Source: Salvator merianae (lineage: Eukaryota; Chordata; Lepidosauria; Squamata; Teiidae). Taken from it: DNA of 64,000 nt. The stretch lies in the NCBI GenBank assembly GCA_003586115.2, contig QVOM02000070.1, positions 2,002,293 through 2,066,292 on the forward strand, given 5' to 3'. The position numbers and the translations under genes were made by a program. Position 1 is the first letter of the stretch. Each line of letters starts with the position of its first letter. Positions 20,784 to 63,530 of this stretch are shown piece by piece. The notes under the pieces are model-generated. The model was not told the origin of the DNA, did no database searches, and worked only from the letters and a program-made list of their open reading frames with translations.

Positions 20784-21004
20784 TTTATTGCAGTTGCATT
20801 TTTTTATTGTTGCAAAGCTTCCACCATTCGTCAAGTAAGTAATGGGTGAACAAAGGAAACACAGATCAATTGGTGCTATAAAATTTATCTAAATGCCAAT
20901 AGTTACGATTCATTTTCATTTGATTAGCTTTGGGGTATCATGTGGAAAGCACAAGAGAAGAAGGTCTTTGCTGATGAAGTCCAGGAGCATCATTATGGTG
21001 GATC
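20784..21004 (-). CDS. Candidate last exon of array 2 (Asp-Pro-Pro-stop plus 3' UTR)
   Basis: The acceptor TTTTCTATAAGCATTAAG is followed in phase 0 by DPP and TAA (coding part 20993-21004). Two AATAAA signals follow on the minus strand, at 20803-20808 and 20784-20789. The copy at 1.5 kb has the same stop position. An alternative ATG frame (MMLLDFISKDLLLLCF) resembles a signal peptide, so a first-exon role cannot be excluded. Confidence 0.4.
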
Positions 21005-21746
21005 CTTAATGCTTATAGAAAATAAATAATACCGATTAGTATAAGTATTTCCAAAGACTTGGAGATAAAAATCTTAATAGGCAGGTTTGTTGTTTGTTTG
21101 GAATAAAGCTTCTGAACACCAGAATTGCCAATTATTGGGGAAATATTAGTTGCTACACCACATATCTGCTATGGATAGTGGTCTATTTCATGCTAATTTG
21201 GAGAAGAAATTCTGACAAGGCCCATTTACACTCCATGAAATTTACAGCACATGCATAACTCCCTTCGAAATGCATAGAAATAGTTGTCTTTTTACTAGCT
21301 ATTCCCCTCTACCACAGTTTGCCCTCGCCACCATTGACAATACAAGCTTCTATTTTTCATGAGATTTATTAACTTATAACTTATATATATACTTATATAT
21401 AACTAGTTATACACTACTTATATAACTAGTATATTGATAGCAATACGAGTTTTATAATAGTAAGACTATTACAATACCAGTTCTGGCTTTGCTATATGAC
21501 AGATTAAGGGAACATGCCCTAGAACTTTCCATAGACCCTGAGAAGATTCATGGGCAACGTGTGAGTGCTTGGCTCCTCAAGGCAATGCTGCTTCCTGTTA
21601 ACATCCCTTAAAATTCATGTCCCATCTAGAGGAAACCACAGAAGGACTCCGATCACCAGTTTCCTGGCATGATGAATATTTTGACATCTGTAGTAGGAGT
21701 CATCAGGACTCCAACATACAAATAAATATATCAGTGCAAACTCTTC

Positions 21747-21761
21747 TCACTTCCACAGAAT
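21747..21761 (-). CDS. Possible alternative terminal exon, ILWK-stop
   Basis: Acceptor TTATTTGTGTGCCTAAG. It lies between the last 30-nt exon (22596) and the DPP-stop exon (20993). Confidence 0.25.
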   Translation of the reverse strand: MLWK

Positions 21762-22595
21762 CTTAGGCACACAAATAAGAGAAAGTATTGGTGATCCCTG
21801 TCTCTCCAGTTGCCTACATCGTGATTTATGGGCACAAAACCTATTGTGATAAACTAGGTGTTTTATCTACCAGAAATCATAAGTCAGGAATGCGAAGGAC
21901 TCTATACAGGCAAGAGATGGATGCTGACTAAGACATGAGGCTGCTGTGGGGGGAGTCTCAGAATGTGAGGTTAATCAGTGCCATGCAGTCATGCACTTGG
22001 TGCAGAAATGAACTTACAGGATCATAAAGAGTACCTCCCTATTACCTTGAGGACTTCACAAACCAACCAAGCAGCCAGGGATTTTTGATGCATTACTGTA
22101 TCTAGTAGTGTAGAATTCACTAAAGAGAACTATTTACTGATTACTTTTAATATTAGTGTGGACTCAAAGCCAAGCTTACTTAGGGCCTTTTCACACCTTC
22201 CAACTTAGAACAGCACTGGCTCCAAACCTGACCCAGTTTTCAGAACCAGTGGCCAGAGCTGGTACAGAATGGGTCTCCCAATGCAGACGGTGATGTCCCA
22301 CAGCAGCGGCACCCTGTCCCAGCATGAGATGTGCTGCACCCTACCCTGCCAAGCATTTCCCCCTGTTTCAGCTTTCTTATGATCAGACCAATAGCTCTAA
22401 TGGTTATTATGAGGGAACCACTGAGCAAAATCTGGCAGGGCAACCATAACTCCTAATTACTGTTAATTAAAAAAAACACACAGAGAAGGACAAACAGAAA
22501 GAAAAAGTAACCTTCAGGCCAACCAATATTCTTTCTTTTACCCCCTTAATTTTCCCTGAGTGAAAATTCTACATCAGGTCATTAGCAATACTTAC

Positions 22596-22625
22596 TCCCA
22601 GGAGTGTCTTTAGCTTATCAATGGC
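22596..22625 (-). CDS. 30-nt micro-exon, AIDKLKTLLG
   Basis: Acceptor TTTCTCTACTTTAG, donor GTAAGTATTG. Leucines and isoleucine spaced as in an amphipathic helix. It is the left-most micro-exon of array 2, nearest the candidate last exon at 21.0 kb. Confidence 0.6.
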
Positions 22626-23876
22626 CTAAAGTAGAGAAATTAGCAGTTAATTATCTTGAGGGATGGAAAGAAAACTGATTGATTCTTATTAAAACAACTT
22701 CACAGTCCATGATATTAGTGTTTCTCACCCAACCTTCTCAAGTGCAGAAAGCAGCAAGAAACAATCAGTACAGATTTTGTTAATGTTTGTGTGTCTATAC
22801 ATGTATGGACATCCTTGGTAGACTAATTATTGTTTCAAAGATGAAAAGTCAAAATTCTGACATTTTTCCCAAATAAATGTCTCAAGGCAAAACCAATGGG
22901 ACTGTGCCCTGCGAATTAGCACAGAATTTGTTAATGTGCTTGCATGCATACATATATTTGCATGTTTTTTATGACTAAAAGAGGAAATACTGCTTTGAGT
23001 GTGAAAATTCAGCTTCCTTCTCCCTGTTGTTTAGTTTTTTCAAAACCTTGACTTTTCCCAATAAAAACTCTTTGCCCTTCTCTGAGAATTGTCAGAAGAC
23101 AGTTTTATTCAAGCCACATCTATGCCAATAGTTACAGAATGTCACATGCAATGATGATGCAAACCCTTGTAGGACTTCTGAGATGGCCAACCTGTTGCAG
23201 GAAAAACAAGCGTGGATACCTTTCTGGCATGGCTTTTCTCTCCTTAGAAGCTCAATATTTGCCCTCAGAGACATTTAGCTCATGAAATTAGGGTGCACAT
23301 TTGTGAACCTGGGAATATCCTACAGTGTCCTGAAAGTCCAGTGGCAGTGTTTGAATTCTATCCTACAGTAATGTCACTCAAGGGAAAAAGAATCGTACTT
23401 TTAAACTACTAACTTAGTCAATGTCAATGGGTGCACCCAGGAAATGAAAAAATCCTTGAAAGGTAGGGATGGAGCATATTGCTGAATGACAGTGCAAACA
23501 TTTCTGTCATTAGATTGCAAAAAAAATCAAGAAAAAACCAGGAGATAGGTTTCCTCAAGCCACATCTGTGGCAATATTTACAGAATGTCCCATGTGGAAA
23601 TGACATGACCTCTTTGTAGGACTTTTTGGATGACAAGCCCATTCTGGAATGACAAGCAAAATTTGCCCCAAGAAAAATTTAAGTTGAACTCCTGAAATTA
23701 AGATGCACAATTGTGACAGGGGGGAATATCCCACAGTGTCATGAAGACCCAGTAGAAGTGACCAAATCTACATCTCATCCACAGTGATGCCACTTCTGAG
23801 AAAGAAAAGAAGGAACATATTGGAGAAGGACAGCAGAGTCTTTTCAATCATTACATTGCAAATTTGTAATACTCAC

Positions 23877-23888
23877 GTTCTCTAAATC
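23877..23888 (-). CDS. 12-nt micro-exon, DLEN
   Basis: Acceptor TTTTCATTTTAG, donor GTGAGTATTA. It corresponds to the 15-nt exons of neighbouring units, one codon shorter with phase kept. Confidence 0.55.
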
Positions 23889-24063
23889 CTAAAATGAAAA
23901 AAGAAAAACAAAGTTACAGTATGTATTCTTGACCATTGACATGAGGGTATCATTTGATAATGACACATGCAGGTCTACTGCATCTAGTAATGTAGAATTC
24001 ACTAAAGAGAACTATTTGCTGATTACTTTTAATTTTAATGTGGACTCAAAGCCAAGCTTACTT

Positions 24064-24534
24064 AGGGCCTTTTCACACCTTCCAACTTAGAACAGGATAA
24101 TTATTCAATTTTAAGTTGGAACAGACTTTGCAGCACGAAAGCCATTCGCACTGCGAGACCTGGAACGTATAGAAAACAGGCTACCAGCATTCGCAGTGTG
24201 AATGCTGGTGGCCTGTGCCATGGCAGCAAGCTGGCAAACTTCTGGCCATTGCCGTGGTGATGAGGAATGCAGTGCAACTGCACAGCCACAGCCACAGCTG
24301 CAGCCATGCCATGCCACTCTGTGTTCGGACCCGGAAGAGGGTGCAGTCGCAGTATACCAGGACCGGCCCAAACTGCTCCCAATATAGCTGTGGAGCACAA
24401 TTTTGTGCTCCACAGAAAGTAGCAATCGGGAGCAGCTGTATTCTGCTTCCAATCTCCAGGGCCTCCACATGGTGCAGATGCACTTCACTAGTGAGCGTCC
24501 TGACGCTCACTAGTGTAAAGTACGAAAAGGCCCT
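24064..24534. mobile_element. MITE with AGGGCCTTTTC ends
   Basis: Starts AGGGCCTTTTCACACC and ends GTACGAAAAGGCCCT, interrupting CTTACTTA/GTCACTGG of the unit consensus. A truncated copy at the same point of the neighbouring unit (22184) shows insertion before that duplication. Confidence 0.6.
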
Positions 24535-24743
24535 CAGTCACTGGCTAAGGTTCAGAATGTCATAAATCAGGATCAAGATCCATCCTGTGCAGATGGAGTG
24601 TACCATCTAAAGTGTGGATTGATGATGCCTAGAAGCTCACTATGTGGGCTCCTACTTTGGACTTCAGATAAGTGCAAAAAGAGCCTGACCTTTCCCAGAA
24701 TAAGATACAAGCTGTTGCATATCAATTCCTTAGCAATACTTAC

Positions 24744-24773
24744 TGGAATCTCCTGCTTTATTTGGTTCAAAAT
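24744..24773 (-). CDS. 30-nt micro-exon, ILNQIKQEIP
   Basis: Acceptor TTTTCTCTTCTATAG, donor GTAAGTATTG. Closest relative is 27044 (ILEHLKTEVP), with most differences changing amino acids. Confidence 0.6.
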
Positions 24774-25328
24774 CTATAGAAGAGAAAAGAGCAGTTAGTT
24801 ATCTTGAAGGATGGAAAGAGGATTGATTGCTTCTTATAAAAGCAACCTCATGATCCATGGTGTCTGTGTTATTCACACAACTTTCTCAAATGAAGAAAGC
24901 AGCAGATTAAGATACAGTCAACACAAATGCTGTTAATGGCTTTTTGTGCAATCATATATGTGTATATTTACATGTCAGTGTCTGAAAGAGGAGATTAATC
25001 TGTGTTTCCCCTGTAGTTTAACTTTTTTTAAAAAAAATCCAGACTTTTCCCAAAAAAGGAGGCAAAGAAAAGCCAGTGTGACCATTTCCTGATCATTGCC
25101 AGGAGATAGCCTTCTCAAGCCACATCTGTGGCAATATGTACAGAATGCCCTGTGCAAAGAGGACGTGACCCCCTCATAGGACTTTTGAATGTCAAGCCCA
25201 TTCTAGAAGGACAAGCATGGATATAGCTCTGAGATGGATAACCCTTTCCAGGTGTTTCCACAAAGCTCAAAATTTGCCCCAAGAAAAGTTTACTCGAACT
25301 TCTGAAATTAGGATGCACAATTGTGACC

Positions 25329-25345
25329 GGGGGGGGGGGGGGGGG
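25329..25345 (+). repeat. G17 run
   Basis: Seventeen G in a row in place of a short G run in sister units. Possible slippage product or assembly artefact. Confidence 0.9.
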
Positions 25346-25495
25346 ATATCCCACTGTCTCATGAAGACCCACTAGAAGTGACCAAATCTACATCTCATCC
25401 ACAGTGATGTCAATTCTGGGAAGGAAAGGTGGAACGTATTAGAAAAGGACAGTAGAGACTTTTCAATCATTACATTGCAAATCTGTAATACTCAC

Positions 25496-25507
25496 GTTCC
25501 CTAAGTC
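25496..25507 (-). CDS. 12-nt micro-exon, DLGN
   Basis: Acceptor TTTTATTTTAG, donor GTGAGTATTA. It differs from DLEN at 23877 by single bases. A CR1 insertion begins about 75 nt to the right. Confidence 0.55.
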
Positions 25508-25581
25508 CTAAAATAAAAAAAAGAAAGAAAAACAAAGTTACAGTATGTATTCTTGATCACTGACATGAGGGTATCATTTTA

Positions 25582-26160
25582 TTTTATTTATAGATATATA
25601 TATATATATTTAATTTGAAATGTTTTATTGACATTGAGAAACTGGAACAAGTTCAGAGAAGGGCGACCAAAATGGTGAGTGGTCTGCAAACCATGTCCTA
25701 CGAGGAACGGTTAAAGGACCTAGGAATGTTTAGCCTGCAGAAGAGAAGGCTGAGAGGAGACATGATAGCTGTTTTCAAGTATCTGAAGGGCTGTCACAGT
25801 GCAGAAGGATTGGCCCTATTCTCAGTTGCACAAGAAGGAAGGACTAGAAACAATGGGATGAAAATCCAAGGGAGTAGATACAGGCTAGATATTAGGAAAA
25901 ACTTTCTGACCGTAAGGGCAATCAGTCACTGGAACAGGTTACCACAGGAGGTGGTGGGCTCTCCTTCGCTGGAGGTCTTCAAGGAAAGGCTGGACGGATA
26001 TCTGTCTGGGATGCTTTAGTGGATCCTGCATTGAGCAGGGGGTTGGACTCGATGACCCTGGAGGTCCCTTCCAACTCTATGATTCTATGATTCTATTGTT
26101 GATATATTTCAGATATATAAAATTACATTCTACATTACATTCTTATATCAATAATATTGT
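25582..26160 (+). mobile_element. CR1 LINE 3' end within a unit
   Basis: The frame at 25615-26019 matches the CR1 ORF2 tail (EKLEQVQRRATKMV, LGMFSLQKRRLRGDMI). It ends with GATTCTATGATTCTAT. CATGAGGGTATCATTTTA is repeated on both sides (25564-25581 and 26161-26178), marking the insertion in a unit between DLGN and ILEHLKTEVP. Confidence 0.85.
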
Positions 26161-27043: not shown

Positions 27044-27073
27044 TGGAACCTCCGTCTTTAGATGTTCCAAAAT
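27044..27073 (-). CDS. 30-nt micro-exon, ILEHLKTEVP
   Basis: Acceptor TTTTCCCTTCTGCAG, donor GTAAGTATTA. Helix-like charged decapeptide. Confidence 0.6.
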
Positions 27074-27787: not shown

Positions 27788-27802
27788 TTCCGGAACGTTA
27801 TT
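27788..27802 (-). CDS. 15-nt micro-exon, NNVPE
   Basis: Acceptor TTTCTCATTTAG, donor GTAAGTATTA. The donor is GTAAGT rather than the GTGAGT of most short exons in this half. Confidence 0.55.
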
Positions 27803-29884: not shown

Positions 29885-29914
29885 TTGATACTCTTGCTTT
29901 AGTCTTGCCAAAAC
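29885..29914 (-). CDS. 30-nt micro-exon, VLARLKQEYQ
   Basis: Acceptor TTTTCTCTTCTGTAG, donor GTAAGTATTA. Amphipathic, with alternating basic and acidic residues. Confidence 0.6.
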
Positions 29915-30581: not shown

Positions 30582-30596
30582 AATCTTAGCTTCTTC
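30582..30596 (-). CDS. 15-nt micro-exon, EEAKI
   Basis: Acceptor TTTTTTAATTTAG, donor GTGAGTATTA. The TATA plus MKVVLLLL segment lies 270-390 nt upstream on the same strand. Confidence 0.55.
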
Positions 30597-32036: not shown

Positions 32037-32066
32037 TGATAATTTTGCCTCTAGTTCATGCAAAAG
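32037..32066 (-). CDS. 30-nt micro-exon, LLHELEAKLS
   Basis: Acceptor TTTTCTCTTCTGTAG, donor GTAAGTATTA. Leucine heptad-like spacing. Confidence 0.6.
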
Positions 32067-32664: not shown

Positions 32665-32679
32665 ACTGGCAGCCTGTTC
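32665..32679 (-). CDS. 15-nt micro-exon, EQAAS
   Basis: Acceptor TTTTTAAATTTAG, donor GTAAGTATTA. Confidence 0.55.
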
Positions 32680-33691
32680 CTAAATTTAAAAAAGAAAAAC
32701 AAAATTACAGTATTATTCTTGATTGCTGACATGAGAGCATCATTCTATAATGACACATGCAAGCATACTGTATCCAATAATGCAGAATTCAGCAAAGAGA
32801 ACTATTTACTGGTTGCTTTTAATTTTAGTGTGTACGCAAAGCCAAGTTTACTTTGTCACTGGTGAAGATTCAGCGTTCCAAGCATGCAACATTGACTTAA
32901 ACAGACTTTTGATCCTAAACAAAAATCCCAGCTCTAGATCCTAACGAGAAACACAAACACTGTCTTCACTGCAAGTTAAAATTTTGCCTGTGAAAAACAG
33001 TCAGCCATGTTCTCGGCCACTCCCGAAAAAACTTCTCCAGAATATGTATAAACATATGCTGTTATTGCATCTTCTTACTTTCTTAGAAGAGTAACTATGT
33101 CTGTCCATGAAAGTGAAACTTTGGCAAAATGGGTAAATTTGCAAGACTGGGTGCTAGATGAGAATGCAGGATCCTGGAAATGGTGTCAAAGGGATGTCCT
33201 GGGAGTGGGGTCAGGATCTGAGAAAATCAGCACAGATTCTGCATGATTAATGCAAATATGAGGTCCAGTAATGCAAATATGAAACCCAAATTTAGGTTCC
33301 TCGTTTATTTATTTATGTACTTCAAATCTTTATATCCTACTTTCCAGCCTATGTTCCCAGGGTGAGTTACAACTTTTTTAAAAATGGCTGTATTCCCAAT
33401 GAACCACACGTCAGAAAATGGCAGTGCAGCCATTGTTACAACCTGCACAGAGGAAGCCAGAAGGAAAGAAAAGGATGTCCTCAGATCAATCCATTCTCTT
33501 TTCTTTTACTTATTTATTTATTTATTGCCCCCCCTTAGGCAGGGATACCTTCGTCACTACAGCTGTCCCTTTTCAGGCATTTCCACACATAGCTCGAAAT
33601 TTGCCCCAAGTAAAATTGAGCTCGATCTCATGACATCAGGATGCATAATCATGACATTTCAATTATTATATTGCAAATCTGTAATACTCAC

Positions 33692-33706
33692 CTCAGAAAG
33701 CTGTCC
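33692..33706 (-). pseudogene. 15-nt exon with lost acceptor (GQLSE)
   Basis: The reading stays open and the donor GTGAGTATTA is intact. The acceptor AG has become GG (AATTTGG), so this copy is probably no longer spliced in. Confidence 0.5.
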
Positions 33707-33977
33707 CCAAATTAAAAAAAAGAAAAAACAAAGTTACAGTATGTATTCTTGAACATTGGCATGAGGGCATCATTTTATAATGACACATGTAAGTCTACTG
33801 TATCTAATAAAGCAGAATTTGGCAAAGAGAACCATTTATTGGTTGCTTTTAATTTTAGTGTGAACGGAAAGCCAAGTTTACCTAGTCACTGGTGAAGGTT
33901 CAGCGTTCCAGGCCTACAGTGCTGACTTAAAGGGATTTTTGATCCTGCACAAAAAAATCTCAATTCTAGTTCCTAAC

Positions 33978-34001: not shown

Positions 34002-34417
34002 TGCCGAGTTAAAATTTTGTCTGTGAAAATCAGTCAGCTGGGTTCTCAGCCACTCCTGAAGAAACTTCTCCAGAATGTCTATAAACATGTGCCGTTATTG
34101 CATTTTCTTACTTTCTTAGGAGAGTAACTACGTCTGTAAATGAAAGTGAAACTTTGGCAAAATGGGTAAATCTGCGAGGCTGGGTGCTAGATGAGAATGC
34201 AAGTAAAGTTGCTCCAAGTAAAATTTAGCTTGATCTCATGATATTAGTATGCACAATTGCAATCTGTGGAATATCCCACCATTTCATGAAGAAATCTACA
34301 TGACCAAATCTATGTCTCATCCACAGTATAATACACCTGGGACGGAAAATATAGAATGTATTGGAGAAGGACAATACAGACTTTTCTATCATTACATTGC
34401 AAATCTGTAATACTCGC

Positions 34418-34432
34418 TTCATTAGGGTTTAT
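34418..34432 (-). pseudogene. 15-nt exon with both splice sites altered (INPNE)
   Basis: Acceptor AG is GG and donor GT is GC (GCGAGTATTA). The frame is still open. It shares the acceptor change with the copy at 33692, so the units were probably duplicated after that mutation. Confidence 0.5.
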
Positions 34433-34847
34433 CCAAATTAAAAAAAGAAAAACAGAGTTACAGTATCATATTCTCTTTATTGTTGACATGAGGGCATCAT
34501 TTCTTAATGACACATGCAAGTCTACTATATCCCATAATGCTGAATTCAATAAAGAGAACTATTTACTGGTTAATTTTTATTTTAGGGTGGACTCAAAACC
34601 AAACTTTTCCCCCCATTTCAGCTTTCTTATGATCAGAGTGATGACTCTAGTGGTTTCTATGAGGGAACCACTGAGCAAAATCTAGCAGTGCAACCATAAC
34701 ACATAATTATTGTTAAAAAACTGTGCAGAGAAGGACAAACAGAAGGAAAATGGAACCTTGAAGCCAACTAATTCTCTTTTTCTGCCCCCTTAATTTTCCC
34801 AGAATGAAACAATAGCTATGTCATATCAATTCTTTAATAGTACTTAC

Positions 34848-34877
34848 TTGCAAGTTTCCCTGTGCAACACTACCAAG
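34848..34877 (-). CDS. 30-nt micro-exon, LGSVAQGNLQ
   Basis: Acceptor TTTCTCTTCTTTAG, donor GTAAGTACTA. Tandem sister of 35834, with an L1-like fragment between them. Confidence 0.6.
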
Positions 34878-35833: not shown

Positions 35834-35863
35834 TTGCAAGTTTCCCTGTAAACCATTACCAAG
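35834..35863 (-). CDS. 30-nt micro-exon, LGNGLQGNLQ
   Basis: Acceptor TTTTTCTTCTTTAG, donor GTAAGTGCTG. It differs from 34848 at three adjacent residues; the remainder is identical. Confidence 0.6.
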
Positions 35864-36106: not shown

Positions 36107-36133
36107 TAGGCTTCTTTTGCTTAGTGGGGATTT
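36107..36133 (-). CDS. 27-nt micro-exon, KSPLSKRSL
   Basis: Acceptor TTTTTGCTTTCCAG, donor GTAAGTTGAT. No second copy is seen in the window. Basic and serine-rich, unlike its neighbours. Confidence 0.5.
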
Positions 36134-37118: not shown

Positions 37119-37130
37119 GCCAAGAAGACC
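37119..37130 (-). CDS. 12-nt micro-exon, GLLG
   Basis: Acceptor CCCACCCTTTAG, donor GTAAGTACTA. First of the Gly-X-X-X tetrapeptide class reading from the left. Confidence 0.55.
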
Positions 37131-37325: not shown

Positions 37326-38485
37326 CTGAGACAAAACTATGCTTCAAAGTGTGCTTCTGTACACTCACTGGACATGCCCATCCACACAACCCTGCCATCG
37401 TGGTGTCCAGGATCATCTACAGTCTTTCTTGCACGCTATAAGCTATGGATAACAAAGTCGCGTCCTGGATCCCACATCATGCTGACAAGACAAGAACCAA
37501 ACTCCCTGGGACAACGGCTCATACTTTCTCACTAGGGCATTTTCATGCTTCTAGGCTTCCTTCTGGAACCCTTTTACAGTCACCACTGTGCTAGCAGTCT
37601 ACCACAACCCAACATACAAAAAACAACTGAAAATTGCAACCTCTTCAAAGGTGCATCTACTCTGAGGTCCACAAATATGAGACAACATGGAGGACTGCTG
37701 TAATTTCATTTTCTTATGTGCTGATCAATGGGCACCAAGCATATTATGATAAACTACACATTTCACCAGCCAGAAATGCTGAGTCAGGAGTGGGCAGGAG
37801 CGTCCATAGGCAAGGCAGACAGATTCCGTGTCCAGACGACGCTTATGTATTCTGCTATATTTGGATTATCCGGAATAAAGCATGGATATTCCGGAATACA
37901 GCGGCATACAAAAAAATCAAAAAATCAAAAACTGCGGTCTCTTCAAAGGTGCACACAGTCTGAGGTCCACAAACATGAGACAGTACGGGTGACAGCTGTC
38001 TCTTCATTTTCATACCTCGTGATCAATGGGCAGAAACTATATTGTGACAAACCACACCTTTCACCTGCTGGAAATGGCGAGGCAAGACTGTGGAAGACTG
38101 TCAATAGGCAAGGCAGATTGATTCTGACTAAAGCTGTATACAAATGTCACTTCTGTATTCCGCTTCTGTATTCCAAAATAAAGCATGAATATTCCAGAAC
38201 AAAGTGGAATACGTAAGGGACGTCTGGATGCAGCTCAAGATGTTAGGCTACTCAGGGGTGGTATCAGAATGGGAGGTTGCTCAGGGCTCTAGAATCATGC
38301 ATTTGCAGCAAAAATTAACTGACATGATCATCAAAAGTACGCCCCTACTACTCTGAGGCCTTCACCGACCAACCAAGGCTCCAGGGATTTATGAAATGAT
38401 TTAAAGCCAGAATTTACTATCAGATGCTACACGGGAATATATCGTAACTCGTTCAGACTTCTAAGGAAGCATTTGCAGTACTTAC

Positions 38486-38497
38486 GTTAAGAAGACC
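38486..38497 (-). CDS. 12-nt micro-exon, GLLN
   Basis: Acceptor CATCCCTTTAG, donor GTAAGTACTG. It lies inside the 1.2-kb duplication; its identical twin is at 42972. Confidence 0.55.
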
Positions 38498-39003
38498 CTA
38501 AAGGGATGAAAGACAAGGGAAAATAAGTTATTCACCTGTGTTTTGCTCTCAAGAACAAGAAAAAAAAGCATACATTTCTTGCATGTCCCAGAAAACCATT
38601 TGATGCAGTACTTCCTCTTTTCTCACATATGCCCATGTATGTCTCCTGCACGTCTCCCACATTCTGCATCAGGTCTACCGGTAGACCCAATTCAATGGAT
38701 CTAGCGATGATCCAGATTAAGATCCGCTTGACCTAGATCAGTTTCCATTTGAAGCAGACAGCGCTCTGCCAATGGGAGCGGGGCCTCCTTCATCCAAATC
38801 AACGTGCAGATCTGGAGGGCTATCCGTGAACTACATGAGCGTTAAATCCGTATTAAGGCCCATGCAGAAAGAATCTCAGTTATGCAGGGAATTAGAGACA
38901 GAAGGGAAAGGGAGGCCTCGGCTACCCAATCCTCTTCCTTTCTCGCCCCGAATCTTCCCAGAATAAAATAGCTGTTGTATATCTACTTATTAGCAGTATT
39001 CAC

Positions 39004-39027
39004 ATTCACGGTTTCTCCTAAACCACC
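39004..39027 (-). CDS. 24-nt micro-exon, GGLGETVN
   Basis: Acceptor CCTCTCTATTTTAG, donor GTGAATACTG (weaker than its relatives). Two codons shorter than the 30-nt class but in phase. Twin at 43490. Confidence 0.5.
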
Positions 39028-39338
39028 CTAAAATAGAGAGGAGAAGAGTTGGTCAGTGCGCAACTCTGTCAGAAGGGTCTGCTCCAACTGTCTACAGGAC
39101 CCTGACGGCCAAGACGCAGCACTGATCCAAAATATCTTTTCCAGAGGAGAAAATCCCGTCCGCCCCCTCGGCAGGGATGAGTCCTCCTCCCTGTTGAATC
39201 TTAAGGGAGATGGGAGGGATAGGAAGGGACCAAACCCTGAAACCAATTGGCAATTCTACAGGTCTATGGCATTTCCATTTATGGAGGCATAAAGACTTAA
39301 GGACATGTAGCTCCCCAACAGATCACAGCTGGGTTCAC

Positions 39339-40016: not shown

Positions 40017-40046
40017 CGGCAAGGCTCCTCCTGCACCACCACCACC
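40017..40046 (-). CDS. 30-nt micro-exon, GGGGAGGALP
   Basis: Acceptor TTTCTCTACTTTAG, donor GTAAGTACTG. Glycine run from repeated GGT codons, recalling elastin-like peptides in composition only. Confidence 0.6.
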
Positions 40047-41488: not shown

Positions 41489-41500
41489 GCCAAGGGCACC
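41489..41500 (-). CDS. 12-nt micro-exon, GALG
   Basis: Acceptor CCTCCCTTTAG, donor GTAAGTACCG. Confidence 0.55.
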
Positions 41501-42026
41501 CTAAAGGGAGGAAACAAATGGGAAAATAAGTTATTCCCCTGTGTTTTGATATCCGGAACACGACAAACAGCCTACATTTCCCACATATCTCAGAAAACCA
41601 TTTTATGCAGTGCTGCATCTTCTCTCACAAAAGACGTCTCTGTTCATATATGCTCAGGTATGCCTTCTGCACGCCTCCCATGTTCTGCATCAGGTCTGCG
41701 GGTAGTCCCAATTCAATGGGTCTAGTGGTGATCCAGATTAAGACTCGCTTGACGTAGGCCAAGTTCTATTTGAAGCAGGCAGAGCTGCTCCAATGGCAGT
41801 GGAGCCTCCTAGATCCATATCAATGTGCCCTTCTGGAGGCCTACCCGTGAACTACACGGCTGCTCAGTTCGTAGTAAGGGCCCATGCAGAAAGAGTCTCA
41901 GTTACACAGGGAATTACAGATGGAAGGGAAACAGAGATCTTGGTCCACCCTTTTTTCTTCTTTTCTCCGCCTGATGCTTCCCTGAATAAAATCGCGGTTC
42001 TATATCAGCATATAGGCAGAACCTAA

Positions 42027-42056
42027 ATTAATGGCTCCTCCGAAACCACCAGCACC
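42027..42056 (-). pseudogene. 30-nt exon with lost donor (GAGGFGGAIN)
   Basis: Acceptor CTCTACCTTAG is usable and the frame open. The donor reads TTAGGT where GTAAGT is expected, so normal splicing is unlikely. Confidence 0.5.
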
Positions 42057-42971
42057 CTAAGGTAGAGAAATGGGGAGCTTTTTAGCACACAGCTCTGTCG
42101 GCCAGGTCTGCTCCAACTCTCTACAGGGCCCTGAGGGCCAAGACACGGCTCTTCTCACCCCTGCCATCACAGCAACCAGGAGCATTTACAGCTACTCTTG
42201 GGCGTGACCAACTGTCGACAACATAATTGCGTCCTCGTGTACTGCATCATGCGGACACGCCAAAAACCAAATTCCCTGGGACAACAGTTCATATTCTCTC
42301 ACTAGGGCATTCCCATGCTTCTAGGCAACCTTATAGAATCACCTTACAGCTTTTCTGTCGATGCTGTGCTAACAGTCTCCCAACACCCAACATACAAAAA
42401 AATCAAAAAATCAAAAACTGCGGTCTCTTCAAAGGTGCACACAGTCTGAGGTCCACAAACATGAGACAGTACGGGTGACAGCTGTCTCTTCATTTTCTTA
42501 CCTCGTGATCAATGGGCAGAAACTATATTGCGACAAACCACACCTTTCACCTGCCGGAAATGGCGAGGCAGGACTGTGGAAGACTGTCAATAGGCAAGGC
42601 AGATGGATTTTGACTAAAGCTGCATACAAATGTCGATTCTGTATTCCGCTTCTGTATTCCAGAATAAAGCATGAATATTCCAGAACAAAGTGGAATACGT
42701 AAGGGACGTCTGGATGCAGCTCAAGATGTTAGGCTACTCAGGGGTGGTATCAGAATGGGAGGTTGCTCAGGGCTCTAGAATCATGCATTTGCAGCAAAAA
42801 TTAACTGACATGATCATCAAAAGTACGCCCCTACTACTCTGAGGCCTTCACCGACCAACCAAGGCTCCAGGGATTTATGAAATGATTTAAAGCCAGAATT
42901 TACTATCAGATGCTACACGGGAATATATCGTAACTCGTTCAGACTTCTAAGGAAGCATTTGCAGTACTTAC

Positions 42972-42983
42972 GTTAAGAAGACC
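42972..42983 (-). CDS. 12-nt micro-exon, GLLN (duplicate)
   Basis: Same sequence and flanks as 38486, exactly 4486 nt to the right. Confidence 0.55.
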
Positions 42984-43489
42984 CTAAAGGGATGAAAGAC
43001 AAGGGAAAATAAGTTATTCACCTGTGTTTTGCTCTCAAGAACAAGAAAAAAAAGCATACATTTCTTGCATGTCCCAGAAAACCATTTGATGCAGTACTTC
43101 CTCTTTTCTCACATATGCCCATGTATGTCTCCTGCACGTCTCCCACATTCTGCATCAGGTCTACCGGTAGACCCAATTCAATGGATCTAGCGATGATCCA
43201 GATTAAGATCCGCTTGACCTAGATCAGTTTCCATTTGAAGCAGACAGCGCTCTGCCAATGGGAGCGGGGCCTCCTTCATCCAAATCAACGTGCAGATCTG
43301 GAGGGCTATCCGTGAACTACATGAGCGTTAAATCCGTATTAAGGCCCATGCAGAAAGAATCTCAGTTATGCAGGGAATTAGAGACAGAAGGGAAAGGGAG
43401 GCCTCGGCTACCCAATCCTCTTCCTTTCTCGCCCCGAATCTTCCCAGAATAAAATAGCTGTTGTATATCTACTTATTAGCAGTATTCAC

Positions 43490-43513
43490 ATTCACGGTTT
43501 CTCCTAAACCACC
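43490..43513 (-). CDS. 24-nt micro-exon, GGLGETVN (duplicate)
   Basis: Same sequence and flanks as 39004, exactly 4486 nt to the right. An hAT-like insertion begins about 230 nt to the right. Confidence 0.5.
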
Positions 43514-43744
43514 CTAAAATAGAGAGGAGAAGAGTTGGTCAGTGCGCAACTCTGTCAGAAGGGTCTGCTCCAACTGTCTACAGGACCCTGACGGCCAAGA
43601 CGCAGCACTGAATGAGTCCTCCTCCCTGCTGAATCTTACCTGGCAAGGGAGGAATACAGAGGGACCGAAGAATGCAACCAAAATGCAGCCCAACAAAGAC
43701 TTTCCTTATTCTTCGTCTTGATTTCTCTGTTTCCGATGGCGCTC

Positions 43745-44391
43745 GCCTCTCTCTCATTCCCCCCCCAGTCTGTCAGTGTGCGCGTGCGACTGACAGACTA
43801 CAGGGAATGAGAGTCAGTGAGCGGGAGAGGAGGGAACTCAACACGAAGGGAATCCCTCCCTTTGCATTGGGTTTCCTTGCTCCACTCCCGCTCGCTGCCT
43901 GATTCACCCTACTCCGTCAGCACCCGCGCTGACAGAGTAGGGTAAATCAGGCAGCCAGCGGGAGAGGAGGGAACTCAACACGAAGGGAATCCCTCCCTTT
44001 GCATTGGGTTTCCTTGCTCCACTCCCGCTCGCTGCCTGATTCACCCTACTCCGTCAGCACCCGCGCTGACAGCCTAGGGGGGTGAGACAGCGATCAGAAG
44101 AGAAGAAAAATCAACGGGAAAGGAATCCTTCCCTTCTCGTTGAGTTTTCTCCTCTTCTGTTCTCTGGCTGCCTGATTCACTCCACTCTGTCAGCACGCGC
44201 GCTGACAGACTAGGGGGATGAGACAGCGGCAAATTGCGAAGGTCCCGAAATGCAGCGAAAATTGACGGACCTTCGCAATTCGAATTTCGTGATTTCTGTT
44301 GCCCTTCGCATTCGATGCGAAGGGAACGAAATCACAAAAATCACAAAAATCGAATGAAAATCGAACGGCACGATTTCGTGCACACCCCTAA
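43745..44391. mobile_element. hAT element with internal 137-bp hairpin repeat
   Basis: Right end TTTCGTGCACACCCCTA. Two close copies of a 137-bp unit begin at 43821 and 43958 and a diverged third near 44095. Each can fold as GCGGGAGAGGAGGG with CCACTCCCGC. Confidence 0.6.
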
Positions 44392-45175: not shown

Positions 45176-45205
45176 CGGCAAACTACCTGGAACACCGGGA
45201 GCTTG
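45176..45205 (-). CDS. 30-nt micro-exon, QAPGVPGSLP
   Basis: Acceptor TTTCTCTGCTTTAG, donor GTAAGTACTG. Pro/Gly-rich. Confidence 0.6.
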
Positions 45206-46465: not shown

Positions 46466-46492
46466 AGGCAAGCCTCCTACACCGGCAGGAAT
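46466..46492 (-). CDS. 27-nt micro-exon, IPAGVGGLP
   Basis: Acceptor TCTTTACTTTAG, donor GTAAGTACTG. It resembles the neighbouring Gly/Pro exons but lacks one codon. Confidence 0.6.
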
Positions 46493-47545: not shown

Positions 47546-47548
<3 letters not shown>

Positions 47549-47621: not shown

Positions 47622-47636
47622 TAGGTTGTCAAGACC
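47622..47636 (-). CDS. 15-nt micro-exon, GLDNL
   Basis: Acceptor TTTAAAAATTTAG, donor GTGAGTATTA. It takes the place of the 18-nt exon in the 30-12-18 cassette. A (GAAA)n run lies just left. Confidence 0.55.
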
Positions 47637-49696: not shown

Positions 49697-49708
49697 ATGA
49701 AGTTGACC
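49697..49708 (-). CDS. 12-nt micro-exon, GQLH
   Basis: Acceptor TTTCCTCTCCTTAG, donor GTAAGTACTG. Confidence 0.55.
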
Positions 49709-50042: not shown

Positions 50043-50072
50043 TCTCAAAATGTCTTGTAGAACAGCAGAATC
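50043..50072 (-). CDS. 30-nt micro-exon, DSAVLQDILR
   Basis: Acceptor TTCCTCTATTTTAG, donor GTAAGTGCTA. First of the (N/D)(P/S)(A/G)V class, with relatives at 54520, 56994 and 59880. Confidence 0.6.
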
Positions 50073-51828: not shown

Positions 51829-51846
51829 ATTTTGGCCTTGAAGTCT
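51829..51846 (-). CDS. 18-nt micro-exon, RLQGQN
   Basis: Acceptor TCTAAAATTTAG, donor GTGAGTATCA. Sister of 58690 (ELQGQT). Confidence 0.55.
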
Positions 51847-53985: not shown

Positions 53986-53997
53986 GTCAATAATATG
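53986..53997 (-). CDS. 12-nt micro-exon, HIID
   Basis: Acceptor TCTTCTCTCTATAG, donor GTAAGTATAG. It occupies the GLLG position of the cassette but is unrelated in sequence inside. Confidence 0.55.
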
Positions 53998-54519: not shown

Positions 54520-54549
54520 TGTCAGGGCTTCTCGTATAACACCAGGATT
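54520..54549 (-). CDS. 30-nt micro-exon, NPGVIREALT
   Basis: Acceptor TTCCTCTATTTTAG, donor GTAAGTGCTA. Confidence 0.6.
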
Positions 54550-55408: not shown

Positions 55409-55426
55409 GCTGATGGCCCCATTTTG
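55409..55426 (-). CDS. 18-nt micro-exon, QNGAIS
   Basis: Acceptor CCTAAAATTTAG, donor GTGAGTATCA. Sits in a ~630-nt tandem duplicate with 56043. Confidence 0.55.
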
Positions 55427-56042: not shown

Positions 56043-56060
56043 GTCGATGACCCCAAGTTG
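56043..56060 (-). CDS. 18-nt micro-exon, QLGVID
   Basis: Acceptor CCTACAATTTAG, donor GTGAGTATCA. The flanks are nearly the same as those of 55409, yet four of the six residues differ. Confidence 0.55.
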
Positions 56061-56473: not shown

Positions 56474-56485
56474 TTTATACAGATT
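56474..56485 (-). CDS. 12-nt micro-exon, NLYK
   Basis: Acceptor TTTCCTCCTTTAG, donor GTAAGTACTG. Confidence 0.55.
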
Positions 56486-56993: not shown

Positions 56994-57023
56994 TGTCAGG
57001 ACACCTCGTAGAACAGCAGGATT
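56994..57023 (-). CDS. 30-nt micro-exon, NPAVLRGVLT
   Basis: Acceptor TTTCTCTATTTTAG, donor GTAAGTGCTA. Confidence 0.6.
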
Positions 57024-58361: not shown

Positions 58362-58689
58362 CTCAGGAACTATATTATTTGCAAAGGCGCTAATTGCAAA
58401 AGTCTAAATATTAAAATATGTCATCAGGTCTGCTGGGTGTGGCCCCTTTTCTGCTTATCTGGAGACCCTCGTGGTACTGCATGGATTTCATCTGCTGCTT
58501 CATACTGTGACTACTGAGGGACAAATCTAGCCTTCAAAATTCCAGGTTCCCTCATTCCAGCATCTTAGAGAAGATTCAGAAAATTCAAATTCCACCAATA
58601 TGTGAATTCACATTATTCTTTTCTTCAATAATAATAACCATAAATAGAATATTAAAAAAGAAAATTCAGAAATGGTGTATGATACTCAC

Positions 58690-58707
58690 AGTTTGGCCTT
58701 GAAGTTC
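58690..58707 (-). CDS. 18-nt micro-exon, ELQGQT
   Basis: Acceptor TTTTAAAATTTAG, donor GTGAGTATCA. Confidence 0.55.
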
Positions 58708-59400
58708 CTAAATTTTAAAAGGGGAGAAGAAAAATCAGTTATTCCACCCTATTTGCTCACATAATCATGGGAAATGCATCATGTTTTTAGCAATTTCGGA
58801 AGGCAATACTTAAGCTCCAGGCCACTTCCGCTCAGATTCTGGTTCAAAGCAAGATCTATGACAACACTCAGGGTAAATATTTTATTGCAACTAGGACAAT
58901 AGTAATCAGCAGCTTCCTTATAAGACAAGTGTATGCACATGTGAGCCAGGGGTCAGAGACGTTACTATTCCTGCCATCACAAAGACACAGGAAGAAAAAG
59001 AGGCAAGAGTTCCGGATTTTGCATTCTCTGAACTCATATCATGATGTATCCGCACAAAGCCTATTGTGATAAACAAGGTGTCTTATCTGCCAGCAATGGT
59101 AAGTCACGAATGTGGTGGGCTCTATATAAACAGGGCAGATGACTGCTGACTAAGACATTAGGCTGCTGGGAGGCATCTCAGAATGGGAGGTTGCTCAGGG
59201 CTCTGCAGTCACGCACTTGGTACAGAAATAAACTTGCGTGATCATAAAGAGTACTTCCCTATTACTCGCAGGACCTCACCAAGCAACTAAGCAACCAGGG
59301 ATTTTTGAAAAGATTTGAAGCCAAAGTTAAGTAACAAATGCTATGGAGGGAACATAGCATAACTCATTCAGACATCTTAGAGAGCACTTTTGTTACTTAC

Positions 59401-59412
59401 AGGAAGAAGAGT
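59401..59412 (-). CDS. 12-nt micro-exon, TLLP
   Basis: Acceptor TTTCCTCTTTTTAG, donor GTAAGTAACA. Confidence 0.55.
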
Positions 59413-59879
59413 CTAAAAAGAGGAAACAAAAGGAAAAATAAGTTATGCACCTGTGTTTTGCTATCAAGAGCACGACAAACAGCATATATTTCCTACACAT
59501 CCAATATGCTCATGTATGCTTTCTGCATGCCTCCCGCGTTCCCCATCAGGTCTGCAGGTAGACACAATTTAATCGCTCTACCTGTGATCCAGATTAAGAC
59601 CCCCCCTAATCTAGATCAGCTTCCATTTAAAGCAGAGAGAGCTATACCGATGGGAGCGGGGGCTCCTTGATCCATATCCATGTGCAGATCTGGAGGGCTA
59701 TCTGTGAACTACGTGGGCCCTTAATCTGTTTTAAAAGCCCATGCAGAATGGGAATTACACAGGGAATTACAGACGGAAGGGAAACAGAGACTTCGGCCTG
59801 CCCAGTTCTCTACTTTTGTCCTCCTGATGCGTCCTGGAATCAAACAGCTGTTGTATAGAAATTTAGTCACAACACTTAC

Positions 59880-59909
59880 TGTCAAGGCTTGTTCTATAAC
59901 AGCAGAATT
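59880..59909 (-). CDS. 30-nt micro-exon, NSAVIEQALT
   Basis: Acceptor TTCCTCTGTTTTAG, donor GTAAGTGTTG. Confidence 0.6.
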
Positions 59910-60858
59910 CTAAAACAGAGGAATGAGAAGTCTGTTAGCACACATCAGTGTCAGCAGGGTCTGCTTCAGCTGTCTACAGACCTGGGGCACCAAGGCACAG
60001 TTCTGCTTCCAAATATGTTTTCCAGATGAAAAATTTCACATCCTGTCTCTCACCAGAGTTGGGTCCTCCTCCCTGCTGAATCTTACATGGCAAGAGAGGA
60101 ATATGGGGGGACCTAAAAATGCAACCAAAATACAGGCCAACAAACATTTTATTTATATTTTCCGGTCTATGCCTTTTCCATTCCCAAACAATATAGTGTC
60201 TTATTAGATTAAGGAGGCATAAGGACTCATCCTGCGCCAGTGCCTCTTAATGAAATGTGGCTTCCCAATAGAGCACCATTGGGTTCACCAATGCATTTAT
60301 GCTTCTGGAAAGCTATGGGCCAAATTGTTCCAACCTGTTTCTGGACAAGGTTTTCAATAGAACAATCAGAAAGGCATTATCAAAGCTACTGCTACCTTAC
60401 CAAGAATGTAGTGAGATGATTTAATCCCACATATTTAAAATCATCAGTGACTCAAACAGCTTTATTTCAGCTTTTGGAAGTACTCCTTTTTGTTAGATAG
60501 TGTGACTTTTCCTCCATTTCAGCTTGCTTATGATCATGGCAATGGTGCTCTTGTTATCACCAGGAAACCACTGGATCTGGTCTGCCGCTAGACCCTATTA
60601 AATGGATCTACCGGCGGTCCAGATTGAGGCATCCTTAATCTAGATCCTTATCAACATGCAGATCTGGAGGCCTGTCTGAGAACTACTTTGGCCTTTATTC
60701 TGCATTAGGGGCTCGTGCAGAAAGGGTCTCATTTACACAGGGAATGGAAGAAACAGAGGGAAACGGAGGCCTCGGCCCAAGCACTTCTCTTCTTTTCTCC
60801 CCCCGATGATCCCCAGAGTAAAATAGCTCCTGTATATCAATTAACGTGCAGCACTTAC

Positions 60859-60876
60859 GGGAACAGCAGGAACAGG
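60859..60876 (-). CDS. 18-nt micro-exon, PVPAVP
   Basis: Acceptor TTTCTCTTCTTTAG, donor GTAAGTGCTG. It occupies a 30-nt-class position but has only six codons; Pro/Val repeat. Confidence 0.55.
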
Positions 60877-62049
60877 CTAAAGAAGAGAAATGAGAAGACT
60901 GTTAGTGCACCACTCTGCCACCAGGGTCTGCTCCAACTGTCCACAATACTCTGAGGGCCAAGTCACGGCTCTGCTCCAAAATATCTTGTCCAGAGGAAAA
61001 GAAGGAAGATATCTTTTCTTTCCTCTTGACAGAGTTGGGTTATCCTCCCTGATGAATCTTACAAGTCAAGGGAGGGTTAGGGAGGGACCTAAAGTAGTGG
61101 CATCATTTCTGCCCTACCTTATATAATCCCACTTATTTATAAAGTCAGCAATGACAGAAAGGGCTTTATTTTGTTTTAGGAAGTTCCCCTCTTCATAAAA
61201 AATTGTGGCCCTGTTCCCACTGGTCTGCTGCTGGGTTTCCTGAGATTCACTGGACAGCCTTGTCCACACAAGTCTGTCACCACAGTGTCCAGGAGCACCT
61301 ACAGGCTTTCCTGAACATTGCTAGCTGGGGAGAACAAAATCAAGTGCTAGAGGGCCTCATCAAGACAAAAGCCAAATTCCCTGGAACAACATTCATACTC
61401 TCACTAGGGCATTCTCATGCTTCTAGGCATCCTTCCAGAACTACCTTACAGCTTTTCTGTCAAGTCTGCGCTAGCACTCACCCAGACCCATATATATATA
61501 AATTAAAAATGTATAATCTGAGGTCCACAGATACGAGAAAGTATGGCTGATTGCTGTCTCTTGATTTCCTTATGTGGTGATTTATGGGCACAAAGTGTAT
61601 TGTGATAAACTAAATGTTTCACCTGCCAGAAATGGGAAGTCAGGAGTGTGGAGGACCGTCAAAGCTGCATCCAGACGTCACTTACTTCTTCTGATATATT
61701 TGAATATTCCAGAATATCCATGGAATATCCATGCTTTATTCTAGAATATCAAAATATAGTGGAATAAGTAAGAGACGTCTTGATGTACCTTAAGATATTA
61801 GGCTGCTGAGGGGAGTCTCAGAATAGGAGGTTGCTCAGGACTCTGCAGTCATGCCCTTGGAATACAATTAAAGGTATGTGGCCATAAAGAGAAGCTTTCT
61901 ATCACTCTGTGGGCTTCAGCCACGAACCAACCAACCAAGCAACCAGTGATTTTTTGAAAAGATTTAAAGCCAAATTTGAGTAGCAGCTGGTACTTAGGGA
62001 ATCTGTCATAATGCATTCAGACGTCTCAGAAAGCATTTGCAGTACTTAC

Positions 62050-62061
62050 ACCGACAAGGCC
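62050..62061 (-). CDS. 12-nt micro-exon, GLVG (left copy)
   Basis: Acceptor TTTCCTCCCTTTAG, donor GTAAGTACTG. Confidence 0.55.
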
Positions 62062-62569
62062 CTAAAGGGAGGAAACAAATGGAAAAATAAGTTATTCACA
62101 ATTTCAGACACACACATGCTACTTTGATTATCAGAAAGGGAACTTATTACACTAGCTTAAATAGTAAATATGTCATTGTATTTTCTTTTGATCACATCAG
62201 AGCCTGCAGGGTGTGGCCCCTTGTCTGCTTAAATGGGGACACTCACGATACACTATGGATTCCATATGCTGTGCATACTTTGAGCACGGAGACAAAACTC
62301 TGCTTCAAAGACTTTTGTGTTGCTGCTGTTTTGAGGTATCGAACCATGGCCAACTTCTGATTGAGTGCATGGGCAGCTTTTTGCATTTGGTTGGCCACTG
62401 CCTTCTCAAAACGCTGCTGTGTTAATATCCCTTGAAATTCATGTCCAGTCTAGAGACAAGCTCTGAAAGACTCATATCACCACTTTCTTGACTTATGAAC
62501 TTTTTGACCTCTGTTCTAGGAGTAAGCCAGAGCCAAAATACAGATAAAAAAAATAAATGCAACCTCTTC

Positions 62570-62584
62570 TCACTTCCACAGAAT
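62570..62584 (-). CDS. Possible alternative terminal exon, ILWK-stop
   Basis: Acceptor GATGCGTGCCTCAG, then ATT CTG TGG AAG TGA. It lies between two GLVG exons. Confidence 0.25.
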   Translation of the reverse strand: MLWK

Positions 62585-63003
62585 CTGAGGCACGCATCTA
62601 AGAGAACGTATGGGTGCTGCTTATCTCCCAGGTTTCCTATGCTGTGATTTACAGGTACAAAGCCTATTGTAATAAACTAGGAGTTTTATCTGGCAGCAAT
62701 GGTAAGTTGGGAATTATAATGGGCTCTATATAAGCAAGGCAGATGGATGTTGACAAAGACATTAGGTTGCTGAGGGGAGTCTCAGAATGGGAGGTTGCTC
62801 AGGGTCCTGCAGTCATGCACTTGGAATAGAAATAAAATTACATGGCCATAAAAAGAACCTCCCTATTACTCTGTGGATTTCAACCAACCAACCAACCAAC
62901 CCACAACTTTTTGAAAAGATTTAAAGCCAAATTTATGTAGCAGATGGTACTTAGGGAGCATATAATTCATTCAGACATCTCAGAAAGCATTTGAAGTACT
63001 TAC

Positions 63004-63015
63004 GCCAACTAGACC
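63004..63015 (-). CDS. 12-nt micro-exon, GLVG (right copy)
   Basis: Acceptor TTTCTTCTCTTTAG, donor GTAAGTACTT. Same peptide as 62050 from partly different codons; units ~950 nt apart. Confidence 0.55.
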
Positions 63016-63512
63016 CTAAAGAGAAGAAACAAATGGAAAAATAAGTTATTCACAATAGCAGATGCACACGTGCTACCTTGATTATCAGAAAGAGTACCAA
63101 TGACACCAGCATAAACAGTAAATGTGTCATTGTATTTTCTTTTGATCACATCAAAGACTGCAGGGTGTGGCCCCTTGTCTGCTTAAATGGGGACATTCAC
63201 GATACACTATGGATTCCATATGCTGTGCATACTTTGAGCACTGAGGCAAAACTCTGCTTCAAAGCCTTTTGTGTTGCTGCTGTTTTGAGGCATCATCGAG
63301 TCATGGCCAACTTCTGATCGAGTGCATGGGCAGCTTTATGTATTTGTTTGCCATTGCCTATCTCTAGGAAGATGCTACACATGGAAGCCGTAACCCTCTG
63401 CTTTCCAGGCAGTTTGTTTACAACTGAGCCACTCCCCTTAAAATTCTAGGCTCCCTCAATATAGCATCTTAGAGACTATTCTGAAAATTCAAACATGATC
63501 TCCAATACTCAG

Positions 63513-63530
63513 TTTTTCACCTGTAAGTCT
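63513..63530 (-). pseudogene. 18-nt exon with lost donor (RLTGEK)
   Basis: Acceptor TTCTAAAATTTAG is intact; the donor reads CTGAGT instead of GTGAGT. Right-most recognised member of the array. Confidence 0.5.

Follow-up and report, generated by a model that had tools for sequence, protein, structure and literature searches.

A minus-strand array of predicted phase-0 micro-exons in the genome of Salvator merianae

Can a vertebrate gene be built almost wholly of exons of a few codons each? The question is raised by a stretch of 64,000 nucleotides from Salvator merianae (hereafter, the window; C1668:2002293-2066292 of a 2.05-Gb genome in 1816 contigs), the minus strand of which carries dozens of very short intervals bounded by splice motifs. 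Judging from the sequence, we consider it likely that the window covers the central part of a single minus-strand gene that encodes a secreted, Leu/Gly-rich, rapidly diversifying protein and has an architecture like that of the micro-exon genes (MEGs) of flatworms. The array grew through repeated tandem duplication of exon-plus-intron blocks, some copies of which are decaying, and its duplicated exons show an excess of amino-acid-changing substitutions. Positions are given in window coordinates, with negative values lying before the first nucleotide of the window.

Extent of the micro-exon array

We scanned both strands for a polypyrimidine tract (at least 13/17) before YAG, followed by 6-60 nt and a GTRAGT donor. 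The minus strand yielded 45 intervals, 40 of which were divisible by three, and all 40 of these were free of stop codons; the plus strand yielded four, with one multiple of three and one stop-free. When the minus strand was resampled 200 times in 2-kb blocks under a first-order Markov model, the mean counts were 2.4 intervals, 0.7 multiples of three and 0.4 stop-free, with maxima of eight, five and three. The first-pass annotation of this locus had named equal frequency of such motif pairs at random places as the outcome that would speak against its exons, and these counts are far from equal. Relaxing the tract to at least 12 gave 50, 42 and 41 on the minus strand versus seven, two and two on the plus strand. 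The minus-strand hits fell into few lengths (15 of 30 nt, 12 of 12 nt, six of 15 nt, five of 18 nt and two of 27 nt), the five further hits being singleton lengths that were not multiples of three.

The curated window list held 43 predicted phase-0 micro-exons of 12-30 nt on the minus strand (Table 1), amounting to 879 nt or 293 codons with no stop. Thirty-eight lie inside 20784..63530 and five at 3.1-9.2 kb, the same numbers that the first-pass annotation had reported. It was also right that the joined codons contain no stop, although its count of about 297 was slightly high. Its statement that all 43 lengths are multiples of three holds for the curated exons but not for a 20-nt class member (3677-3658) with intact sites, and the ends of its span, 20784 and 63530, are not exons in our scans, the outermost being 63015 and, within the span, 22596. 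Two of the kept exons (43513 and 39027) have a weaker GTGAAT donor. This donor is shared by a further candidate, PVSCLH (31077-31060), which an initial list of 44 had included. We removed it because it belonged to no paralogue class, had a weak donor, and left a stronger helix signal behind when taken out (moment rising from 0.330 to 0.346). No Rfam family reached its cut-off within the window.

Nor is the array confined to the window, as became evident once the flanking stretches were added (together with the window, 334 kb, interrupted by runs of N, for example at -63, 78.5 and 133 kb). On the same strand, it continues upstream with the exons SLLG (68493), GSGVPGTGP (66770) and GLVG (66228), and downstream exons reach about -41 kb. 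Between -45 and 72 kb there were 62 phase-0 stop-free intervals on the minus strand versus none on the plus strand. The curated gene comprises 62 predicted exons with 468 codons (1404 coding nt) over 113 kb; 61 of them are micro-exons of 12-36 nt (mean 21.9 nt), and the median intron is 1173 nt. The product size first proposed, some 280 residues, was therefore an underestimate, since the predicted exons hold at least 468 codons.

Immediately before the first array exon, 7.5 kb upstream of the window, lies a probable signal-peptide exon, MQLQVVATVFLVLLLSPKEGLSA (71494-71426, minus strand), which ends in phase 0. The exon was picked by eye and hydrophobicity, and was chosen for its position, TATA box and textbook look. 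A TATAAA motif 77 nt before its ATG suggests that it is the first exon, and the gene probably starts here. The earlier proposal of a secreted product gains support from this exon.

Duplication and rate of change of the exons

Nearly all exons could be placed in five paralogue classes, drawn up by eye from the similarity of their flanks. Class A exons are 12 nt long (e.g., GLVG), class B 18-30 nt (e.g., NPAVLRGVLT), class C 15-18 nt (LQGQ-like), class D 30 nt (e.g., ILEHLKTEVP) and class E 12-15 nt (e.g., DLEN). Self-alignment of the sequence (alignments of at least 250 bp) showed that exon-plus-intron blocks have been duplicated repeatedly, with 67-99% identity between copies. In the youngest case, two blocks of 1221 bp with two micro-exons (37905-39125 and 42391-43611) were 99.2% identical, which points either to a duplication of very recent date or to a duplicate created by the assembly. 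Within classes B, C and E, the lengths of intact exons differed only by multiples of three. Among the gaps in flanking introns, counted over pairs from this gene and from a second, upstream series described below, 46 of 212 were multiples of three, but so were 46 of the 94 gaps of at least 3 nt, which makes the contrast between exons and introns weaker than a first impression suggests.

Exon sequence has diverged more rapidly than the surrounding introns. In 17 hand-chosen disjoint paralogue pairs, exons differed at 129 of 351 sites (37%) and introns at 20%, with 11% for tracts and 2% for donors, the last two values being partly built in because those motifs served to find the exons. Over 300 random disjoint matchings, the ratio of exon to intron difference ranged from 1.65 to 2.47. 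We also paired exons of the whole gene automatically, merging nested exons with a common donor and excluding pairs with a flank difference <2%, a flank identity <68% or gaps >25%. The resulting 23 disjoint pairs had 174 differences at 495 exon sites versus 93 (standard deviation 8) expected, a value never reached in 20000 draws from intron windows. The same procedure applied to the upstream series gave 57 differences at 426 sites in 19 pairs versus 48 (standard deviation 6) expected, which was reached in 1668 of 20000 draws.

For the gene, the nonsynonymous, synonymous and intron differences (dN, dS and dI) were 0.541, 0.310 and 0.219, respectively. These estimates derive from short exons, copies of shared ancestry and simple counting, and gave a dN/dI of 2.46 (confidence interval 1.89-3.15), a dS/dI of 1.41 (0.80-2.24) and a dN/dS of 1.74 (1.11-2.9). 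Synonymous change compatible with the intron rate, together with faster nonsynonymous sites, is the signature that diversifying selection leaves when it acts on the predicted frame. The earlier description of the intervals as coding gains support from amino-acid-changing sites outpacing both introns and synonymous sites. The upstream series showed no significant acceleration (dN/dS 1.43, 0.79-2.6; dN/dI 1.23, 0.62-1.98).

Could the exon excess instead reflect conversion that homogenizes introns, or a higher mutation rate of exons, with no selection on the protein? The introns of copies are indeed alike over long stretches, and dS/dI lies above 1 at 1.41, although its interval includes 1. However, the whole interval of dN/dS lies above 1, and the upstream series, of the same design, has no excess, although its own dN/dS overlaps that of the gene. 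We regard an explanation by conversion or mutation as rather improbable.

Decay within the array bears on a different alternative, in which an old micro-exon gene was spread by segmental duplication and is now dead or unexpressed, the intact exons being survivors. Profile searches found about 11 decayed or partial copies in the window, one of which breaks the frame (3677-3658). The donor has been lost at 63.5 and 42.1 kb and the acceptor at 34.4 and 33.7 kb, and copies of partial exons lie at 58.4, 55.7, 55.1, 51.5, 46.4 and 29.4 kb. Against such an array stand the 43 intact window exons, and the nonsynonymous excess, set beside synonymous differences that fit the intron rate, points to protein selection until recently. 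A dead array therefore seems very unlikely to us, and we retain a gene under diversifying selection as the favored reading.

The predicted product and its neighborhood

The window peptide, computed from the list that still included PVSCLH, contained 18% Leu and 15% Gly; the joined peptide of the curated gene has no cysteine. The 3' half of the window peptide had its strongest hydrophobic period at 100 degrees, as an earlier suggestion of a helix-forming protein would lead one to expect, and this periodicity runs across exon borders. When exon order was shuffled, the helical moment of the exons from LGNGLQGNLQ onwards was exceptional (p 0.0097 with PVSCLH, 0.0033 without), as was that of the exons from EQAAS onwards (p 0.0013), and shuffles within exons reached the observed moment 0, 1 and 0 times in 3000 in the three tests. 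Genomic exon order in the 3' part thus carries the helical phase over splice borders, which supports the exons being joined. Pairs of class D and class E exons (10 plus 4-5 residues) add up to 14-15 residues, or about four helical turns. Between the Gly/Leu-rich part and the helical part sits the dibasic exon KSPLSKRSL, and one may speculate that it is a processing site.

Searches with the joined peptides yielded no homologue. The 299-residue peptide of the first 44 window exons had nothing at E ≤ 10 in a large protein collection (7993 candidates scored, sharing most words and 0.55-1.75 times the query length), no Pfam family over its cut-off (best E 0.01) and a best PDB match of E 2.1. For the 468-residue peptide, the best Pfam family was SKA1 (E 0.0029), coiled-coil-like and below its cut-off at 17.9 versus 29.6 bits. 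A query made of the opening part of the upstream gene drew no Pfam match.

This upstream series occupies the minus strand from 92 to 206 kb, with 70 phase-0 stop-free intervals versus two on the plus strand. It is headed by another probable signal-peptide exon, MKFLVAVAVLLVSVHAQ, with its ATG at 205447 and a phase-0 end. Its exons are Pro/Gln-rich, with copies of PPPPGPYFP and an acidic Ser stretch, and the series may be one gene or several. Further classes of 15, 21 and 30 nt (GKNGGGS, NPLAALS, KLPTGTGSAP) were seen, and the 21-nt exon QRKKRSS at 110418-110398 resembles a furin-type cleavage site. Scan hits were few outside the two series: four on the minus strand from 72 to 92 kb, one of them phase-0; one on each strand from -100 to -45 kb; and none on the minus and one on the plus strand from 206 to 234 kb.

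The secretory calcium-binding phosphoprotein (SCPP) genes of tetrapods, which encode caseins, enamel proteins and salivary proteins, have small phase-0 exons, phase-0 introns throughout and a signal-peptide exon. They have far fewer exons than the gene in the window, are linked to the ameloblastin-enamelin cluster, and place the signal peptide in exon 2 after an untranslated exon 1. An SCPP gene with amplified exons is an unlikely reading of our array. The predicted internal exons, which were selected as phase 0, all fit it apart from the 20-nt copy at 3677, as do the phase-0 ends of both probable signal-peptide exons, and the composition of the upstream series makes this family the most natural known home. 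The position of ameloblastin weakens the case: the Amelin family gave two genome matches (33.8 and 27.4 bits, cut-off 25; one with stops in frame), both on contig C1402 at 73.2 Mb; C1668 had none, although a scaffold join is possible. In addition, the window peptide is Leu/Gly-rich, neither Pro/Gln-rich nor acidic, and with the TATA box so close to the ATG, a separate untranslated first exon could hardly fit between them.

A further candidate is a gene of BPIF/PLUNC type in which duplication of micro-exons has enlarged a Leu/Gly-rich leader; leaders of this type are similar in composition. We give this explanation next to no weight. No LBP_BPI_CETP domain was found in the joined peptides, which had neither a Pfam match over cut-off nor a PDB match, and all 10 genome matches listed lie off C1668, on contigs C117 (nine) and C102 (one), two of them at or just over the cut-off (best 29.0 versus 28.8 bits). 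Because the genome searches were run in six frames and ignored introns, the absence of this family or Amelin from C1668 is no proof. KRTDAP, which would mark the KRTDAP/dermokine cluster as a neighbor, had no match anywhere in the genome, but none in controls either.

For a single expressed gene of secreted, diversifying type, several results count as adverse. Besides the frame-breaking 20-nt copy, the partly built-in conservation of tracts and donors, and the lack of homologues, changes at codon positions 1, 2 and 3 (66, 62 and 46) follow the expected direction but are not significant alone. Over the whole window peptide, the period with the strongest signal is 76 degrees and not 100; the 5' half, at 94 degrees, has no significant helix signal (p 0.10 and 0.19); the phases of the helix exons did not differ significantly from random spacers (p 0.17); and the halves and parts for the helix tests were chosen after looking. 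Two stricter signal-exon scans missed both MQLQVVATVFLVLLLSPKEGLSA and MKFLVAVAVLLVSVHAQ, which were found once the acceptor requirement was removed, and the scan gave no excess by count (minus strand, 14 rows from 12 donor sites; plus strand, 13 rows). A terminal exon, stop codon and polyadenylation site were sought, and none was convincing.

Several further features were observed. An intron contains a 137-bp tandem repeat in three copies (43820-44227), with similar sequence, by eye, near -22 and -42 kb. On the plus strand, an open frame at 25594-26019 resembles the end of a CR1-type retrotransposon; Pfam gave no support. More signal-peptide-like exon ends, MMLFPLLATLLLVVSTHSL at about -94148 (minus strand) and MKTHILLVASLFAVVSAQQW at about -89276 (plus strand), perhaps belong to other secreted-protein genes beside the cluster. 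No conserved neighbor genes were recognized by eye in open frames from -100 to -82 kb, or in spliced frames from -100 to -45, 72 to 92 and 206 to 234 kb.

Table 1. Predicted micro-exons and decayed or irregular copies in the window.
Feature	Position	Strand	Remarks
GLVG	63004..63015	-	12 nt, class A
GLVG	62050..62061	-	12 nt, class A; 4 synonymous changes vs 63015
PVPAVP	60859..60876	-	18 nt, class B
NSAVIEQALT	59880..59909	-	30 nt, class B
TLLP	59401..59412	-	12 nt, class A
ELQGQT	58690..58707	-	18 nt, class C
NPAVLRGVLT	56994..57023	-	30 nt, class B
NLYK	56474..56485	-	12 nt, class A
QLGVID	56043..56060	-	18 nt, class C
QNGAIS	55409..55426	-	18 nt, class C
NPGVIREALT	54520..54549	-	30 nt, class B
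HIID	53986..53997	-	12 nt, class A
RLQGQN	51829..51846	-	18 nt, class C
DSAVLQDILR	50043..50072	-	30 nt, class B
GQLH	49697..49708	-	12 nt, class A
GLDNL	47622..47636	-	15 nt, class C
IPAGVGGLP	46466..46492	-	27 nt, class B
QAPGVPGSLP	45176..45205	-	30 nt, class B
GGLGET	43496..43513	-	18 nt, class B; donor GTGAAT
GLLN	42972..42983	-	12 nt, class A
GALG	41489..41500	-	12 nt, class A
GGGGAGGALP	40017..40046	-	30 nt, class B
GGLGET	39010..39027	-	18 nt; recent duplicate of 43513; donor GTGAAT
GLLN	38486..38497	-	12 nt; recent duplicate of 42983
GLLG	37119..37130	-	12 nt, class A
KSPLSKRSL	36107..36133	-	27 nt, unclassed; dibasic KR inside
LGNGLQGNLQ	35834..35863	-	30 nt, class D
LGSVAQGNLQ	34848..34877	-	30 nt, class D
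EQAAS	32665..32679	-	15 nt, class E
LLHELEAKLS	32037..32066	-	30 nt, class D
EEAKI	30582..30596	-	15 nt, class E
VLARLKQEYQ	29885..29914	-	30 nt, class D
NNVPE	27788..27802	-	15 nt, class E
ILEHLKTEVP	27044..27073	-	30 nt, class D
DLGN	25496..25507	-	12 nt, class E
ILNQIKQEIP	24744..24773	-	30 nt, class D
DLEN	23877..23888	-	12 nt, class E
AIDKLKTLLG	22596..22625	-	30 nt, class D
AVDGPLGIQI	9126..9155	-	30 nt, class D
EKELL	6676..6690	-	15 nt, class E
EKVYEMLNIA	5637..5666	-	30 nt, class D
RKQGN	5224..5238	-	15 nt, class E
EIIDN	3131..3145	-	15 nt, class E
Decayed class C copy	63483..63572	-	without GTRAGT donor
Decayed class B copy	41997..42100	-	donor lost
Decayed class E copy	34384..34470	-	acceptor AG lost
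Decayed class E copy	33658..33751	-	acceptor AG lost, donor intact
Class D copy, 20 nt	3658..3677	-	splice sites intact, not a multiple of three; counter-example

Proposed mode of action and known systems

In the mechanism that we propose, the mature part of the protein would be encoded almost wholly by 12-36-nt exons, each starting and ending between codons, and splicing would link these, in the order of the genome, in a single mRNA. Since no listed exon shifts the frame, any of them may be skipped, and exon gain and loss together with alternative splicing could yield a pool of related proteins. Duplication and loss of exons would change the number of repeats, splicing would mix the modules, and selection would alter residues inside the exons, with the class D and E pairs of the 3' half forming an amphipathic helix of variable length. 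The protein may come from a secretory epithelium (in a gland of the mouth, skin, cloaca or reproductive tract) and be active on membranes or lipids or meet fast-changing partners, which would account for the diversifying selection; its most likely use would be to act on membranes, lipids, microbes or mates after release from a gland or epithelium. Secretion is the one step of this role that the sequence directly backs. Whether the locus as a whole is an independently evolved vertebrate micro-exon gene cluster we regard as evenly balanced. Such a cluster would comprise at least two adjacent genes, one clearly accelerated, encoding secreted proteins from dozens of symmetrical exons of 4-12 codons and a hypervariable pool of amphipathic peptides through exon birth, exon death, alternative splicing and positive selection.

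Several known systems share parts of this design. Duplicates in snake venom gene families differ more in coding sequence than in introns, a pattern shared by the exons here; those families arose by duplication of whole genes, whereas here single micro-exons duplicate within one gene. Searches of one open-access library turned up no vertebrate gene of such a design.

MEGs, described from schistosomes and tapeworms and apparently restricted to platyhelminths (PMC4350168), encode a signal peptide followed mostly by very small symmetrical exons divisible by three (PMC4350168; PMC7653826), as the window gene is predicted to do. An operational rule for MEGs asks for at least seven exons, of which micro-exons (<70 nt, a multiple of three) make up half or more and occur in runs of at least four (PMC7653826). 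All 61 predicted micro-exons of the gene stand in one run, with the 3' end missing, and the comparison with schistosome MEGs drawn in the first-pass annotation accords with this rule. The dN/dS of MEGs is raised, exceeding 1 for the mature parts of three of them (PMC4350168; PMC7653826), and is likewise high here, although our value concerns paralogous exons whereas PMC4350168 used orthologues. MEGs further yield variants through alternative splicing of their micro-exons (PMC4350168), a behavior that the frame-keeping exons of the window would permit. The differences are that the genome is of vertebrate type, as its Amelin and LBP_BPI_CETP matches indicate and as would fit a toothed amniote, that no sequence relation was found, that the exons are predicted, and that flatworm descent is lacking. 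By analogy, the window gene is MEG-like in architecture, and we do not claim it as a MEG by descent.

Aphid bicycle genes also have many micro-exons of one phase, as does the megacycle gene with >100 micro-exons, and many are expressed in salivary glands and secreted (PMC9168663). Their exons are almost all phase 2 (PMC9168663), unlike the listed window exons, which are all phase 0, and the lack of cysteine in the predicted product makes a CYC motif impossible. Tandem exon duplication within a vertebrate secreted-protein gene is known from the amphibian skin peptides caerulein and magainin; in those genes, however, the copies show almost no divergence (PMC3731216), unlike the duplicated exons here, which diverge faster than introns.

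Gene finding and read mapping struggle with micro-exons (PMC7653826), and the gene is therefore likely to be missing from annotations. If it is expressed, it would offer a way to examine how vertebrates splice some sixty consecutive exons of 12-36 nt. A vertebrate would then have evolved a micro-exon design that has been met mainly in aphids and parasitic flatworms, and that for MEGs is described as apparently confined to flatworms (PMC4350168); with it would come diversifying selection of the kind that acts on some flatworm MEGs.

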